From assembly GCF_001318295.1 (NCBI RefSeq), contig NZ_CP012665.1, forward strand, positions 682,001 to 746,000: a stretch of 64,000 nt of DNA, given 5' to 3'. This document shows positions 28,163-40,665 of the stretch, in pieces; within the stretch, counting starts at the first letter, position 1; each line of letters starts with the position of its first letter. Below the pieces are notes generated by a model. It ran no database searches. It was given only the letters and a program-made list of their open reading frames with translations, and was not told the origin of the DNA. The stretch comes from Candidatus Xiphinematobacter sp. Idaho Grape. Lineage in GTDB: Bacteria > Verrucomicrobiota > Verrucomicrobiia > Chthoniobacterales > Xiphinematobacteraceae. The position numbers were made by a program, and so were the translations under genes.

Positions 28163-28882
28163 ATGACTATACCCAATGTAGTAGCAATTATCGTTGCTGC
28201 AGGCACAAGTCGACGCATGGGTTTTGACAAATTAACCGTTCCACTAGCAGGACAACCCCTACTCACCCACACGCTACGTGCATTTGAACAGTGCGTCTAT
28301 GTATCAAGGATAGTTCTAGTCTGTACCCCTTCACGGGAGGACGAATTTCGTCGCATTGCTCGAAGGGGTAGAATTAAAAAGCCGGTCACTTTTGTATTTG
28401 GAGGCAAGGAGAGACAGGATTCCGTGTGGAATGGACTTCTCGCAGCAGGAGAGTCCGCCGAATATTTAGCAGTGCATGATGGGGCGCGTCCGCTAGTCAC
28501 GCCATTTCTCATTGCTAGCTGTATTCGCGCCGCCCAGCGCTGTGGCGGAGCTTGTGCAGCTGAACCTCTTACAGATACCGTGCACCAGGTGAACAGAGAG
28601 AAATTGCTTGTAAAGTCTATCGAGAGGAGGGGGGCTTGGAGAATGCAAACCCCGCAGGTTTTCCTCCGAAGCAGTCTTCTGGAGTCATATCTCCAACTCA
28701 TGCGAGAGGGTTGGTCTATCACAGATGAAGCATCCATCCTGGTTCGATTCGGGAAACGAGTCGTCATTGAAGAGTCTGTAGATTGGAATTTTAAAGTTAC
28801 AGTTCCACAAGATCTTGTGTTGGCTGAGGCGGTACTAGCTTACCGCCAAGGTAGGTCATCGAAGTGGAAATGGGACTCCTAG
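28163..28882 (+). CDS. ispD: 2-C-methyl-D-erythritol 4-phosphate cytidylyltransferase
   Basis: Forms CDP-methylerythritol in the MEP isoprenoid pathway. The 239-residue protein shows the nucleotide-binding AIIVAAGTSRRMGFDKL, the glycine-rich FVFGGKERQDSVWNGL, VHDGARPLVTP, and WRMQTPQVFLRSSL with DEASILVRFG. The usual PKQ after the RMG loop is replaced by DKLTVPL, which is common. It is divergent from gltX across a 124 bp region that probably holds both promoters. It feeds uppS and the squalene/phytoene synthase family enzyme. Confidence 0.95.
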   Translation: MTIPNVVAIIVAAGTSRRMGFDKLTVPLAGQPLLTHTLRAFEQCVYVSRIVLVCTPSREDEFRRIARRGRIKKPVTFVFGGKERQDSVWNGLLAAGESAEYLAVHDGARPLVTPFLIASCIRAAQRCGGACAAEPLTDTVHQVNREKLLVKSIERRGAWRMQTPQVFLRSSLLESYLQLMREGWSITDEASILVRFGKRVVIEESVDWNFKVTVPQDLVLAEAVLAYRQGRSSKWKWDS

Positions 28883-34233: not shown

Positions 34234-36001
34234 CTGTGGTGCGCTTCGTCTCGCACATGTTGGTGTTGAGTCTACGCTTTGTGGTTGGGTAGATTCTCGC
34301 CGCGACCACGGTGGTGTAGTTTTTGTGGATCTTCGCGACAGAGAGGGAAAAACACAGGTGGTTTTTCGCCCAAGGGGGGATGCTGTTGTCCTCACGGAAT
34401 TAGCACACAGCTTGCGTTCTGAGGATATCATTCAAGTGATAGGAAAAGTGGCTGCTCGCCTACCAGGTACGGAGAACAGAAAACTGGTTACTGGAGAAAT
34501 TGAGGTGGTCGCCTCCTCGCTTAAAATATTTAGCCGTGCAGACGTACTCCCATTCCTGCTCGGTGATTCGGAAATGACTAATGAAGATCTTAGACTTGCC
34601 TATCGCTATCTCGACCTTAGACGTTCTCCCATAATACGTAATCTTCGCCTACGCCATCGTCTCGAGCAGAGTACTCGCCTATACATGGACGCACTGGGAT
34701 TCTTAGAAGTAGAGACGCCCATCCTGACCAGAAGTACCCCTGAGGGCGCACGTGAATTTCTAGTTCCGAGCCGTCTCCATCCCGGCCACTTTTATGCTCT
34801 TGCTCAGTCCCCACAACAGTACAAACAACTGCTCATGGCGGGGGGGGTTGAAAAATATTTTCAGATTGCAAAGTGTTTTCGCGATGAAGATGGCAGGGCG
34901 GACCGTATTATGGAGCTCACACAGATAGATATTGAAGCTTCCTTTGTAAGCCGCGGGGATATCTTCGTCCTTATTGAGGGACTGATGGAAAGAATTTTTC
35001 GAGACACACTGGAGATACAAATTCCAGTTGCGTTTCCGCGTCTAACCTATCGACAGGCTATGGACCGCTTTGGAAGCGACAGGCCGGATACACGGTTTGG
35101 CATGGAATTGGTGGATATAGGTGACATTTTCCATCTGAGCAGTTTTGGAGTATTTCGTAGAGTCTTGGACGCTGGGGGTTATATCAAAGCGATTAATGTC
35201 AAAGAAGGAATGTTCTATGCTACCGCTGGCCGCATTGAAAAGCTTGAGCAGATTGCCCACCGACATGGAGCCCAAGGGATCTCCTTTATTAGTGCGGAAA
35301 GTAGGGGATGGAAGTCTCCTGTTGGAAAATTCTTTTCCCGTTTAGAGAGAGATACGCTCACCAGTCGTCTACATATTGAGGAAGGCGATCTCGTTCTCTT
35401 TTGTGCAGACAAGTGGCAGACTGCCTGCGAGGTATTAGGGAAAATCCGCCTCTATTTAGCAGAGGCTTTACAACTGATAATAGATACAGGCCGTTGGGAT
35501 TTTGTGTGGATAGTGGATTTTCCTCTACTAACACTCGATGACGCGGAAGGGAAATGGGTAGCAGTACACCACCCTTTCACGCGTCCCAAACAAGAGGATT
35601 TTCCCTTGCTGGATTCCGGAGAGTTTGGCCAAATACGCGCAGAAGCCTACGATCTAGTACTCAATGGAATTGAGATTGGTGGAGGTAGTTTAAGGGTCCA
35701 TGAACCGGACTTGCAGGCCAGAATTTTTGACGTGTTGGGGATAGCTCCGGAGAGACAGAGTCGACTTTTTGGTCATCTCTTACGTGCTTTCCAATTTGGA
35801 ACCCCACCTCACGGGGGTATTGCAATTGGAGTGGATCGATTGACAATGCTCCTGTGTAAGACTCCCCATATTCGAGATGTTATTGCCTTCCCAAAAAGTG
35901 GTCGTGGTCAAGATCTTCTCTTTTCTTCCCCTTCTACAGTAGAGAATTGTCAACTGCAGGAGCTTTCCATTCGACTAGCTGGAAATCCATCTTCGTCTTG
36001 A
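34214..36001 (+). CDS. aspS: Aspartyl-tRNA synthetase, probably non-discriminating (Asp/Asn)
   Basis: Class II synthetase. The 595-residue bacterial-type protein has an N-terminal OB anticodon-binding domain ([20 protein letters not shown]), the flipping region [14 protein letters not shown], the catalytic core, an inserted GAD domain and motif 3 in [11 protein letters not shown]. His32 in RRDHGG and Gly85 in LPGTENR are the residues associated with non-discriminating enzymes that also charge tRNA-Asn. Motif 2 is unusual: residues 223-239 read [17 protein letters not shown] where most bacteria have LRADRQPEFTQ. An eight-G run (34840-34847) lies in frame. It follows hisS with a 20-base overlap. 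Confidence 0.96.
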
Positions 36002-36171
36002 CTTCTTTTTTTATGCCATTTGGAGGACATGCGCCCCGCTTTAACGGGCAAAACATCTAGTCGCTCACCAGTAAGTAGCCTTTTATGGACGCAGCAGAAA
36101 AGACTATCCTGTTGGTTTGTCTCATATAGGAAAGAAGGGGGATCCCCTCTTGTCGAGGACTTTTACTGTTA

Positions 36172-36187
36172 ACACAATATATTGTGG
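36172..36187. promoter_or_regulatory. NrdR box 1 upstream of nrdB
   Basis: ACACAATATATTGTGG matches the published 16-base palindromic NrdR consensus (aCACwATATATwGTGt) at 15 of 16 positions by eye. It lies about 170 bases before the nrdB start. NrdR is the ATP/dATP-sensing zinc-finger repressor of ribonucleotide reductase genes. Confidence 0.8.
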
Positions 36188-36203
36188 AATACTGGTTTAT
36201 TCT

Positions 36204-36219
36204 ACACAATATACAGGTT
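36204..36219. promoter_or_regulatory. NrdR box 2 upstream of nrdB
   Basis: ACACAATATACAGGTT keeps the left half of the NrdR consensus exactly and a degenerate right half. Its start is 32 bases from the start of box 1, i.e. three helical turns, which is the spacing usual for paired NrdR boxes bound cooperatively. The spacing supports it more than the sequence alone. Confidence 0.7.
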
Positions 36220-36358
36220 TTGTTGACTTTCTTCTCCTCGAATGCTGAACTTTGCAGGCACGGTGGTCGGTATAGGCCGATGGGGTTTTGGGAATATTGA
36301 TGGAGAGAAAACTGCGCGTATACGGTTGAATTAATCAAAGGGAGACCAGCATTTCACT

Positions 36359-37444
36359 ATGGCGATTACCACAATCCAAATTGGAGATAGGCGTTTCGTG
36401 CTGGACCGTGATAAAGCCGAAGCAGCGTTTGCTGCCAAACGAGTTATCAACGGACGGAAAACAATGTTCTTTAATATCCTCCCCCTCAAGTACCAATGGG
36501 CTTATGATCTATACAAGAAGATGAAAGCTAACCACTGGGAACCCGAAGATATCCCTATGCAAAAAGATTGCGAACAATGGGGGGATCTGGCTACTCCAGA
36601 GATTGAGCACTGGATCATTAAGATGGGTGTTGGTTACTTCTCAGCAGCCGAGGGAATTGTTGGGGATAACATTATGCACGTTGTTCGGGAGCTAGTGACA
36701 GCGCCAGAACTGAAGCTGGTTTTAGGACGCCATGCTCACGAGGAGAATATCCATACTGACTCCTTGGTGTATATGATTAGCTCCTTGGGAATCAATGCCC
36801 ATGAATGTGAGGCGATGTTTGAGGATATCAAAACGATTAGGAAAAAAACGGATTTCGTGGTGAGCAACAGCCACAAAATGCGGCGCAGTTTGGATCTGAC
36901 AACCAGAACGAACAAACAAGCATTAGCAAAAAACATTTTCCTCTTTGGGCAGTGTGTAGAGGGAACCCAGTTTTTTGGCTTATTTGGGCTCATTCTCGCT
37001 CTTTACCGAAACAATAAATTTCCTGGTATTGGACAAATGTTCCGATACACCCTTCGTGATGAATCCAACCACATAGAACTTCTGCGCAACCTGCTAATGG
37101 ATCTTGTAGAAGAGAATCCAGAGATTTGGACAGAAGCTTTCCGTTCAGACTTAAGGGAAACTATGGCTGAAGCTGTGCATCTAGAAAAGCAGTTTATCCA
37201 GGACTGTTTACCGGTTCATGTGGTCGGTCTGACGGGTCAAGAGTTTAAACTTTATATCGATTACATCGGAGACCGGCGTCTTATGGAGTGTGGATTACCC
37301 CCGTTAAATGTGCCTATTGCTAATCCGTTGCCGTGGATAGCCGAAATGATGGACATTAAAAAGGAGCAGAACTTCTTTGAAGGACGCGTTACCGATTACC
37401 AGAAATCCAATGTTCTGACTACCTCGCCTGATGACGAACTCTAA
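36359..37444 (+). CDS. nrdB: Class I ribonucleotide reductase R2 subunit lacking the radical tyrosine (class Ic-like)
   Basis: Small (metal cofactor) subunit that generates the oxidising equivalent for reducing ribonucleotides. The 361-residue ferritin-like protein keeps all six expected metal ligands: Glu98 (AAEGIV), Glu129 and His132 (EENIHTD), Glu201 (CVEGTQ), Glu235 and His238 (RDESNHIE). The position seven residues after Glu129, tyrosine in class Ia/Ib, is Leu136. Substitution here defines the chlamydial Mn/Fe class Ic enzymes, which usually have phenylalanine. The first ligand is glutamate, again as in class Ic. Trp47 and a C-terminal tyrosine (VTDYQ) could carry the electron-transfer path. 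Two NrdR boxes precede it. Confidence 0.95.
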   Translation: MAITTIQIGDRRFVLDRDKAEAAFAAKRVINGRKTMFFNILPLKYQWAYDLYKKMKANHWEPEDIPMQKDCEQWGDLATPEIEHWIIKMGVGYFSAAEGIVGDNIMHVVRELVTAPELKLVLGRHAHEENIHTDSLVYMISSLGINAHECEAMFEDIKTIRKKTDFVVSNSHKMRRSLDLTTRTNKQALAKNIFLFGQCVEGTQFFGLFGLILALYRNNKFPGIGQMFRYTLRDESNHIELLRNLLMDLVEENPEIWTEAFRSDLRETMAEAVHLEKQFIQDCLPVHVVGLTGQEFKLYIDYIGDRRLMECGLPPLNVPIANPLPWIAEMMDIKKEQNFFEGRVTDYQKSNVLTTSPDDEL

Positions 37445-38091
37445 TGCTCTAATTTGTTCCTGCGGTGCTTCCGCCATATGTCGCAAGGGGTCATAGCACC
37501 TAAGCAACTTGTCCAGTTTCCACAAGAAGAAAAGCCTTGGTGCACTTGTCGGGAACGGAAGATGTTTCAATGAAGATCACTATGTATAGTGGCAGAAGGG
37601 GGGGCAGCTGAGTGCGAATGAAGCAGTAGACAAAGTAAACATTTTTTCGAAATTCCTTTCTCCCTTTTCCCCGAAGGGAGAGAATCCAGACCGTAACCAT
37701 GAGTTTGTGGCAGGGTAGTATGCTTTAACTCCGCTCGTGGGATGAGTGGAACAACGGACAAATGCTCCATACATCTGAGGATGACATTTTTTTGCTTATC
37801 GAAATTGAAATCTAGTCGCTCTCCGAGGGGTTGTAGTAACTACTATGGAAACAGTTCCCTTTGGGACCGATCCTCCAGGCTAATTGCTCTTCCGATCCAG
37901 CAGAGTAGTCCTGCTGCGTCTCGGCATGAAGCAAAGTTAGGACTGCTTTCAAAAAGGCTTTCCTTGCCGTGGAAGAGTTTCTATCCCCAGCATCAAAAAT
38001 CGCAATTACTGTTCCCGAACGATTTTTATAAAACAGCGATACCTTGTTGGTCTGCCTTCTGGACATACAAGATATGGTATAAGAAGAGCTA
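37445..38091. other. Long spacer between nrdB and nrdA
   Basis: Nearly 650 bp separates two genes that are normally tightly linked. A plus frame of 116 codons (37742-38092) is not recognisable and is out of frame with nrdA; a TAA sits in the nrdA frame at 38080-38082. It includes an NrdR-like palindrome and an 8-bp hairpin TCTCCCTT/AAGGGAGA at 37659-37681. The region could be a decayed gene or decayed N-terminal ATP-cone sequence, but I see no cone motif in it. Confidence 0.5.
37578..37591. promoter_or_regulatory. NrdR-like palindrome between nrdB and nrdA
   Basis: CACTATGTATAGTG is a palindrome apart from its central pair and differs from the NrdR core CACTATATATAGTG at one base. No partner box is present 31-32 bases to either side, and it is about 500 bases from the nrdA start, so its function is uncertain. 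Confidence 0.4.
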
Positions 38092-40665
38092 ATGTGCGAT
38101 GGTCACTACAGCGAAGTTACAGAGAGTCACGTCCTTTACCGTATTCAACGCTCTCGTCTACGATATGAAAAATCTGGACGGGTCTTCTCTGGTCCGCCTG
38201 AACAAAAGGAACCTCCTATTATCGTCCGTACTATGACAGGCCAAAGTGTCTTTTGGGATGGAAGTGATCTAGAACACCGCATTCAGTTTGCCTCAGTTGG
38301 TCTGGATCTTTGTCTGAATAGCATACAGATTGAGAGCGAGTTGCGTCGCTCCATTGGAATAGAAGTTTCTGAAGACGTCCTCAGGAAAACTGTCATTTTG
38401 AATGCAAAGACTCTAATTGAGCGTGATGCCGATTTTTCCAGGTTTGCAGGTCGTATTCTACTTTCCTACATTTATGAAGAGGTGCTGGATTGGCACATTG
38501 CGCGCGATGGTGCTGAAGGTCTAAAGGCAGCGCACTGCAAAGCTTTTAGCACATATTTGGAGAGGGCAATCACTATTGAACGTTTAACTCCGAGATTGCT
38601 CTCCTATGATTTGGGGCGTCTAGCTGATGCATTAGATCCTTCTGCGGATTTAGACTTTGATTATCTTGGAATGCAAACCCTTTATGATCGCTACCTTATA
38701 GTAGACAAAACCGTAAAGCCGATCCGCCGCCTTGAAACCCCACAGTTTTTCTGGATGAGAGTAGCCATGGGTGTCTTCCTTGAGGACTTTGGGGATCGTA
38801 CTGCCCTAGCCATGCAATTATATTGCCTCTACAAAAATAGGAGGTTTTGTTCCTCTACGCCTACATTGTTTAACTCTGGCACCCTGCATAGTCAGCTTTC
38901 TTCATGTTACCTCTATAAGGTGGATGATAGTATCGAATCCATCATGCAACGGGGTATCGCAGATAATGCCTATCTCGCAAAGTGGGCAGGGGGACTTGGA
39001 GGGTCGTGGACAGCGGTACGTGGAACTGGTAGTTACATTAAAGGCACTAATGGGGAAAGCCAGGGAGTGATCCCGTTTCTAAAACTGCACAACGATCAGT
39101 TGGTGGCCGTTAACCAAGGGGGGAAGCGCAAAGGCTCTGGCTGCGCTTATTTAGAAACATGGCACAGCGATATTTTTGACTTCCTCAAGCTGCGTGTCAA
39201 TACAGGTGATGAGCGGCGGCGCACCCATGATATGAACACAGCAAATTGGATTCCGGATCTCTTTATGAAGCGCATGGAAGCACGGCAAAGCTGGATGCTT
39301 TTTCGCTCTAATGAGGTCCGAGATCTTCACGGACTTTACGGACGGTTATTTGAGGAACGTTATCAATATTATGAAACCCTTGCACGTCGAGGTCAGATCT
39401 TTGGACAAGAGGTACCTGCGATTGATTTGTGGAAGGAGATGCTCAGAATGGTCTTTGAGACAGGTCATCCCTGGATAACTTTTAAGGACCCTTGCAATAT
39501 TTGCTCACCGCAGGACCACGTTGGTGTGGTCTACTCCTCAAACCTCTGCACGGAGATTACGCTTAATACTAGCGAAGAGGAGACAGCGGTTTGCAACCTT
39601 GGATCCATTGTTTTAGATAGCCATATTCTTGAAGATGGCAGCATTGATCACACGATGTTGAGAGATACTATCCGGACTGCTGTGCGTGCACTAGATAATG
39701 TTATTGATATTAACTTTTATCCAATCGAAGCCGCTAGAAGAAGTAGCCTACGCCATCGCCCTATTGGGCTAGGCGTGATGGGATTGCAAAATGCTCTACA
39801 CAAGCGTGGGATCGGTTTTGCCTCACAAGAGGCCATAGAGTTTAACGACGAATTTATGGAAGTAATTGCATTCTACGCCTACAGTGCCTCTAGCGATCTC
39901 GCAGCTGAGCGTGGTACTTACGAGAGTTATGCAGGCTCCAAATGGGACCGTGGCATCCTCCCCCAGGATACTATTACTCTTCTGGAGCAGGAAAGAGGAG
40001 GATTCACAGAAGTTCCAAGAGACTGTAGTAGGATGGATTGGAAAATCGTACGCGAAAAGATACGTAAGCAGGGGATGCGCAATTCGAATGTGCTTGCCAT
40101 CGCTCCTACTGCAACTATCTCCAATATCATGGGGACCACTCCATGTATTGAGCCAAATTTCCGCAACCTTTACGTGAAGAGCAATTTAGGTGGTGATTTC
40201 GTTGTACTTAACAGGGAGCTTGTTCTAGATCTGAAAGCGGAAGGGCTGTGGAATTCAGATATGCTCGACCAACTCAAATACTTTAACGGTGAGCTTGAAG
40301 ACATTCCAAATATCCCTAAGCCTCTTAAGGAGAAGCACCTTACAGTATTTTCTATCGACTTTAATTATATTGTCGATGCCGCTGCACGCCGCCAGAAGTG
40401 GATCGACCAATCTCAATCTGTGACCCTTTTTCTGGCAGATCCAGACATGAAAACCCTTAGTCACATGTACCGTGCCGCTTGGAGAAAGGGACTAAAAACG
40501 ACCTACTATCTTCGCATACTGAGTGCTTCTGACATCGAAAAAATCACTCTTTCCGAATCAAAGAAAAAGATCCGTGGAACAGTTGCCAAAGTGGCTGCAA
40601 GTGCAGCAGCGGTTTGTTCCCTAGAAACTCACCAGGTCAGCTTTGGGTGTGAGGCTTGCCAGTGA
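38092..40665 (+). CDS. nrdA: Ribonucleoside-diphosphate reductase R1 (large) subunit
   Basis: Catalytic subunit that reduces ribonucleotides using the radical made by NrdB. The 857-residue protein has redox cysteines in LSSCYLYKV and TAVCNLGSI, the thiyl cysteine and glutamate in SNLCTEITLN, the tyrosine pair of the radical path in GLKTTYYLR, the PTATISNIMGTTPCIEPN loop and a C-terminal CEAC pair for re-reduction. The N-terminal about 130 residues resemble only the degraded end of an ATP-cone region (LIERDADFSRFAGRILLSYIYEEV); complete cones, present in two or three copies in chlamydial NrdA (over 1000 residues), are not visible. That may change allosteric control of activity by dATP. Confidence 0.96.
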   Translation: MCDGHYSEVTESHVLYRIQRSRLRYEKSGRVFSGPPEQKEPPIIVRTMTGQSVFWDGSDLEHRIQFASVGLDLCLNSIQIESELRRSIGIEVSEDVLRKTVILNAKTLIERDADFSRFAGRILLSYIYEEVLDWHIARDGAEGLKAAHCKAFSTYLERAITIERLTPRLLSYDLGRLADALDPSADLDFDYLGMQTLYDRYLIVDKTVKPIRRLETPQFFWMRVAMGVFLEDFGDRTALAMQLYCLYKNRRFCSSTPTLFNSGTLHSQLSSCYLYKVDDSIESIMQRGIADNAYLAKWAGGLGGSWTAVRGTGSYIKGTNGESQGVIPFLKLHNDQLVAVNQGGKRKGSGCAYLETWHSDIFDFLKLRVNTGDERRRTHDMNTANWIPDLFMKRMEARQSWMLFRSNEVRDLHGLYGRLFEERYQYYETLARRGQIFGQEVPAIDLWKEMLRMVFETGHPWITFKDPCNICSPQDHVGVVYSSNLCTEITLNTSEEETAVCNLGSIVLDSHILEDGSIDHTMLRDTIRTAVRALDNVIDINFYPIEAARRSSLRHRPIGLGVMGLQNALHKRGIGFASQEAIEFNDEFMEVIAFYAYSASSDLAAERGTYESYAGSKWDRGILPQDTITLLEQERGGFTEVPRDCSRMDWKIVREKIRKQGMRNSNVLAIAPTATISNIMGTTPCIEPNFRNLYVKSNLGGDFVVLNRELVLDLKAEGLWNSDMLDQLKYFNGELEDIPNIPKPLKEKHLTVFSIDFNYIVDAAARRQKWIDQSQSVTLFLADPDMKTLSHMYRAAWRKGLKTTYYLRILSASDIEKITLSESKKKIRGTVAKVAASAAAVCSLETHQVSFGCEACQ

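Follow-up and report, generated by a model that had tools for sequence, protein, structure and literature searches.

In Candidatus Xiphinematobacter sp. Idaho Grape (G000), a pair of NrdR boxes ahead of nrdB very probably forms the operator of an NrdR repressor that the genome still encodes. Because the ATP-cone region of the catalytic subunit NrdA is eroded, NrdR probably also provides the last feedback by dATP on the single ribonucleotide reductase found in this bacterium, which lives inside nematodes. Positions refer to the window, the whole 64,000-nt stretch of DNA analyzed, unless a contig is given.

When dATP is high, an NrdR tetramer carrying dATP and ATP (or ADP) would bind both boxes on the same side of the double helix, at a distance of three turns and just upstream of the promoter. 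Bound NrdR would lower the transcription of nrdB and nrdA. The boxes stand directly 5′ of the presumed −35 element TTGACT; NrdR would therefore bend the DNA and exert its effect immediately upstream of the polymerase. Binding, dATP requirement and repression are proposed for this genome by analogy with studied NrdR proteins: PMC9110341 and PMC12176259 describe NrdR with dATP and ATP or ADP as binding two boxes three turns apart and repressing. The sequence-only reading had suggested that dATP-sensing repression appears to be kept; the boxes and an intact nrdR support this as far as its components go, and repression by dATP itself is carried over from those proteins.

The box pair ahead of nrdB

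The NrdR box is a 16-bp palindrome with the consensus ACACWATATATWGTGT. Box 1 (ACACAATATATTGTGG; 36172–36187, + strand) had 1 mismatch in 16, and its description as a near-perfect match was accurate. Box 2 (ACACAATATACAGGTT; 36204–36219, + strand) had 3 mismatches and a degenerate right half. The first ten bases of the two boxes were identical, in agreement with the claim of a second box with an exact left half 32 bases further on. The distance was 32 bp from start to start, leaving a 16-bp spacer, and the boxes started 187 bp (box 1) and 155 bp (box 2) 5′ of the nrdB start (36359). The claim that three-turn spacing is typical of NrdR pairs also held: in PMC12051234, NrdR boxes stand ahead of reductase genes with a spacer of 15–16 bp, three turns. 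PMC9110341 describes a G/C pair as critical; by our own count this pair is C4 and G13, and it was kept in both boxes.

Four sites with at most 3 mismatches were found in the window, compared with a shuffle mean of 0.41, and four were reached in none of 100 shuffles. Box 1 was the sole site with at most 1 mismatch in the 915,884-bp, one-contig genome (backward-read control, 0). Genome-wide, 8 sites had at most 3 mismatches vs. 3 for the backward-read pattern. Three of the 8 lay at nrd genes, and every site elsewhere had at least 3 mismatches; equally good matches at unrelated genes, sought across the genome, were absent. Other sites with 3 mismatches lay within long frames (120805 and 245142 of the genome) or shortly before frames (82739 and 891495). 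When the 14-bp core was searched with up to 2 mismatches, 7 sites were found genome-wide vs. 5 in the control; box 1, with 0 mismatches in the core, and a third site at 37577–37592, with 1, stood out, and sites with 2 were at control level (5 vs. 5). When the upstream region was shuffled 2000 times, no shuffle equalled the pair (4 mismatches in total, offset 31 or 32), and the best had 10 mismatches. On a scoring matrix built from 14 relatives, box 1 scored 25.4, the top of the window, and no equal was found in 30 simulated genomes. Box 2 scored 2.5, a value expected at approximately 245 sites per genome; because this score is weak, the case for box 2 rests on its spacing, and box 2 as a free-standing site, being at background level on the relatives' matrix, was dropped. 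Both boxes are confirmed as sequence features.

The boxes were conserved among relatives in the Verrucomicrobiota. We found nrdB in 35 of 57 genomes; the close set comprised 14 relatives with an upstream region and 76–86% NrdB identity (G003 was treated separately, and G009, which has none, was left out). The best box ahead of nrdB had at most 3 mismatches in 12 of the 14, 4 in one and 5 in one, and in 12 of them the strongest further site in the surrounding 45 bp lay at exactly ±31 or 32 bp. Among distant nrdB loci (38–52% NrdB identity), 2 of 13 had a site with at most 3 mismatches within 400 bp upstream. A wider set of at least 80 titled loci was reduced to 73 by removing 4 repeats of earlier genomes and 3 short upstream regions. 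Among these 73 further loci listed, a box with at most 4 mismatches was present in 52 (3 when shuffled) and a pair with at most 10 mismatches in 36 (none when shuffled). The G000 pair had the fewest mismatches of the four genomes of the genus (4; the others had 6, 7 and 14).

A candidate −35 element, TTGACT (36223–36228, + strand), lies just 3′ of box 2 and was aligned in all four genus genomes; in 13 of 15 genomes, a TTGAC-like element stood 51–55 bp from the point where the first box begins. A sigma-70 scan of the + strand from 36000 to 38300 gave no promoter-like site and did not list TTGACT, and no convincing −10 element was found. From its position and conservation we infer that TTGACT is the −35 element. 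The G000 boxes thus lie just 5′ of the candidate −35, whereas PMC9110341 describes boxes as often overlapping the polymerase site.

The arrangement resembles the NrdR regulons of Escherichia coli and Streptomyces coelicolor, as portrayed in PMC9110341, PMC12176259 and PMC12051234, in having a repressor with Zn-ribbon and ATP-cone and palindromic boxes that share a conserved G/C pair and stand in twos with a 15- to 16-bp spacer. It differs in that G000 has a single reductase operon, with nrdB before nrdA, and no detected box before nrdR.

The nrdR gene

The gene nrdR lies outside the window (G000 contig C1, 492733–493221, − strand) and encodes 163 aa from a conserved Met, with no stops. Its absence from the complete genome had been named as fatal to the sequence-only reading; it is present and intact, with the residues examined kept. 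Both domains exceeded the Pfam cut-off (Zn-ribbon, PF22811, E = 5.2e-19; ATP-cone, PF03477, E = 1.5e-16), a genome search with the Zn-ribbon returned nrdR at E = 1.2e-19, and all five solved sequences matched by the protein were named NrdR. Numbering follows a gap-free alignment to 9fzf_A, which we take to be E. coli NrdR, with positions counted by eye. The protein keeps the Zn ligands C3, C6, C31 and C34, as well as D15, R17, R26, R28, R37, K53, E59 and K65. The roles of the residues checked (Zn, DNA and nucleotide contacts) are those given in PMC12176259 and PMC9110341. Position 12 is Lys in G000, as in 9fzf_A, and Arg in Streptomyces NrdR according to PMC9110341. The G000 protein deviates at several positions that are constant among 7 relatives.

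NrdR was found in 53 of the 57 genomes and was not found in G003, G004, G030 and G044, the last three of which are drafts. The G014 protein was divergent (37% identical). A box with 2 mismatches stands approximately 31 bp 5′ of nrdR in two relatives of the genus, G001 (C55:91520–91535) and G002 (C139:5288–5303), a position that suggests autoregulation of nrdR in both. No comparable box was found upstream of nrdR in G000, where the best site had 4 mismatches and was 173 bp away.

The reductase genes and the eroded ATP-cone

The small subunit of a class I ribonucleotide reductase is encoded by nrdB (36359–37444, + strand; 361 aa; PF00268, E = 3.5e-64). In the NrdB stretch EENIHTDSLVY, a leucine apparently occupies the place of the usual radical tyrosine (by E. 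coli numbering); the same was observed in G003, G001 and G047. Because of this leucine, the enzyme looks class Ic-like (compare PMC9669993).

The catalytic subunit, NrdA (38092–40665, + strand; 857 aa), matched PF02867 (E = 2e-181) and PF00317 (E = 3.9e-18). It is preceded by an eroded 5′ part of nrdA (37445–38091, + strand), with stops and frame changes, that holds the remnant of an N-terminal ATP-cone. The gap between nrdB and nrdA was 647 bp in G000 and approximately 670 bp in G003, in which the open frame of nrdA had 865 codons. NrdA was 1083–1095 aa long in 7 relatives, and in all 7 scanned an ATP-cone (PF03477) exceeded the cut-off at approximately residues 162–250. No match to PF03477 was found in NrdA of G000 or of G003 at E up to 1. 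When the first 255 residues of G001 NrdA were compared with the gap by tblastn, residues 176–253 aligned in G000 with 2 stops, and the same query gave 3 stops in G003. Longer NrdA queries reached E values down to 3.6e-50 against the remnant, but these alignments extend into intact nrdA. Across 89 loci (two genomes being counted twice), residues 175–235 of NrdA were stop-free by tblastn in 79, interrupted by stops in 2, partial in 3 and not found in 5; both loci with stops were Xiphinematobacter. This count replaced a motif-based count of intact cone regions (41 of 78) that we judged too strict.

A whole-genome PF03477 search of G000 returned NrdR (E = 4.2e-17), the nrdA remnant (E = 2.0e-4, with 2 TAA stops) and, at E = 0.34, one insignificant place, so that no intact ATP-cone other than that of NrdR was detected; the same search of the whole G003 genome, at E up to 1, was empty. 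A single PF02867 reductase was present in each of the four genus genomes, and the class III model PF13597 had no match in G000 or G003.

A cone-like stretch persists beside the NrdA core in G000, without a Pfam match. According to PMC9669993, the ligand-binding residues vary more in inner ATP-cone copies, and the second copy of Pseudomonas aeruginosa cannot bind ligands. Since the outer cone is eroded and inner copies are variable elsewhere, we infer that the G000 reductase has lost its cone-mediated response to dATP; the remaining stretch might still bind nucleotides. In PMC9669993, Chlamydia trachomatis reductase has three and that of P. aeruginosa two N-terminal ATP-cones. The long NrdA of the G000 relatives is like these multi-cone enzymes in having cone-like stretches before the catalytic core, whereas in G000 and G003 the outer part has decayed where it stands, and the open gene begins nearer the core. 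The G000 subunit resembles cone-less NrdE and viral NrdAe (same source) in having no recognized N-terminal ATP-cone, but unlike them it is preceded by a readable remnant, in a reduced symbiont genome. The extent of erosion is alike in G000 and G003, and it is therefore likely that it began in their common ancestor.

The eroded region also contains candidate box 3 (37577–37592, + strand), a palindrome, TCACTATGTATAGTGG, with 1 mismatch in the 14-bp core. Its matrix score was 14.3, and approximately 1.6 equally good sites are expected per genome by chance. A palindrome-like site at 28805–28820 (CCACAAGATCTTGTGT) scored 17.8, second-best in the window and above box 3; it was set aside, lying inside a long open frame that resembles ispD by eye. 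Because of the chance expectation and of this higher-scoring site in an open frame, box 3 is uncertain: it may be a chance match, or it may be an operator of recent origin that serves the shortened nrdA. No site like box 3 was found at the nrd genes of G003.

The sister genome and the loss of dATP control

The sister comparison involved one sister genome, G003 (917,278 bp, one contig, 99% complete), whose NrdB was 95.3% identical to that of G000; the value for G001 was 85.9%. No NrdR match was found in the whole G003 genome at E = 0.001. The DNA of the G000 nrdR locus aligned to G003 on both flanks, which carry HIT-like and fabG-like genes (by eye), and the syntenic 1131 bp between the flanks had no NrdR frame. 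NrdR-like fragments there were weak (tblastn E = 0.80 and 1.1), and their best score was equalled in 26 of 300 shuffles; the description of this place as a proven pseudogene was withdrawn on that account. It is likely that nrdR decayed in place in G003.

The region upstream of nrdB in G003 aligned with that of G000 and retained TTGACT. The best G003 box pair had 14 mismatches and was equalled in 83 of 500 shuffles. When the two genomes were aligned, 9 of 16 bases were kept in box 1 and 13 of 16 in box 2, with 160 of 239 identical over the whole upstream region, so that box 1 looks unconstrained in G003 and box 2 less clearly so. With nrdR missing between the same neighbors and the pair at shuffle level, G003 appears to have neither the regulator nor a recognizable operator, clearly for box 1 and less so for box 2.

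The G000 boxes could be relics, with an nrdR that is intact by sequence yet no longer regulates and sites that are disappearing as they did in the sister. The degenerate box 2, the missing counterpart of the nrdR-upstream box of G001 and G002, the absence of the system from G003 and the wide loss of regulation described for this genome in PMC4607532 are what one would expect of relics. However, 15 of the 16 bases of box 1 are the same in G001, compared with 9 of 16 in the nearer sister, no other pair in the genus has so few mismatches, and NrdR has no stop and keeps its named residues; we regard the relic explanation as improbable. It is more improbable still that the sites belong to another factor favoring CACAATATATTGTG palindromes. 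G004, one of the 14 close relatives and a 95% complete draft, has a box and no nrdR was found in it, so the correspondence of box and regulator is imperfect, but the position before nrdB, the pairing at 31–32 bp, the conservation and the joint absence of boxes and nrdR in G003 argue for NrdR. A chance match, for which only the background score of box 2 by itself speaks, is scarcely credible given the shuffled upstream regions, the uniqueness of box 1 in the genome and its conservation in relatives.

The dATP brake of Xiphinematobacter may have been dismantled in steps. The enzyme cone would have eroded first, before the two lineages parted, so that G000 was left with NrdR as its sole ATP-cone protein and sole dATP feedback; NrdR and its boxes would have decayed later in the sister, whose reductase would now run freely; and box 3 would have emerged as a new operator within the dead cone region. 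This order of events, read from the sequences of two genomes, seems to us evenly balanced between right and wrong.

NrdR control is widespread, and as a regulatory site the boxes are ordinary; the new part would be the stepwise loss of dATP control in this genus. The words nrdR and ribonucleotide are absent from the main text of the genome papers PMC4607532 and PMC7857533. A search of the open literature returned nothing on Xiphinematobacter with NrdR and, by title, nothing on-topic with ribonucleotide reductase. The genus would offer a natural series in which two relatives have both brakes (cone and NrdR), G000 has one and G003 has none recognizable. Such a series makes it possible to ask directly whether cells survive when their reductase is unregulated, and how their nucleotide pools and mutation rate are affected.
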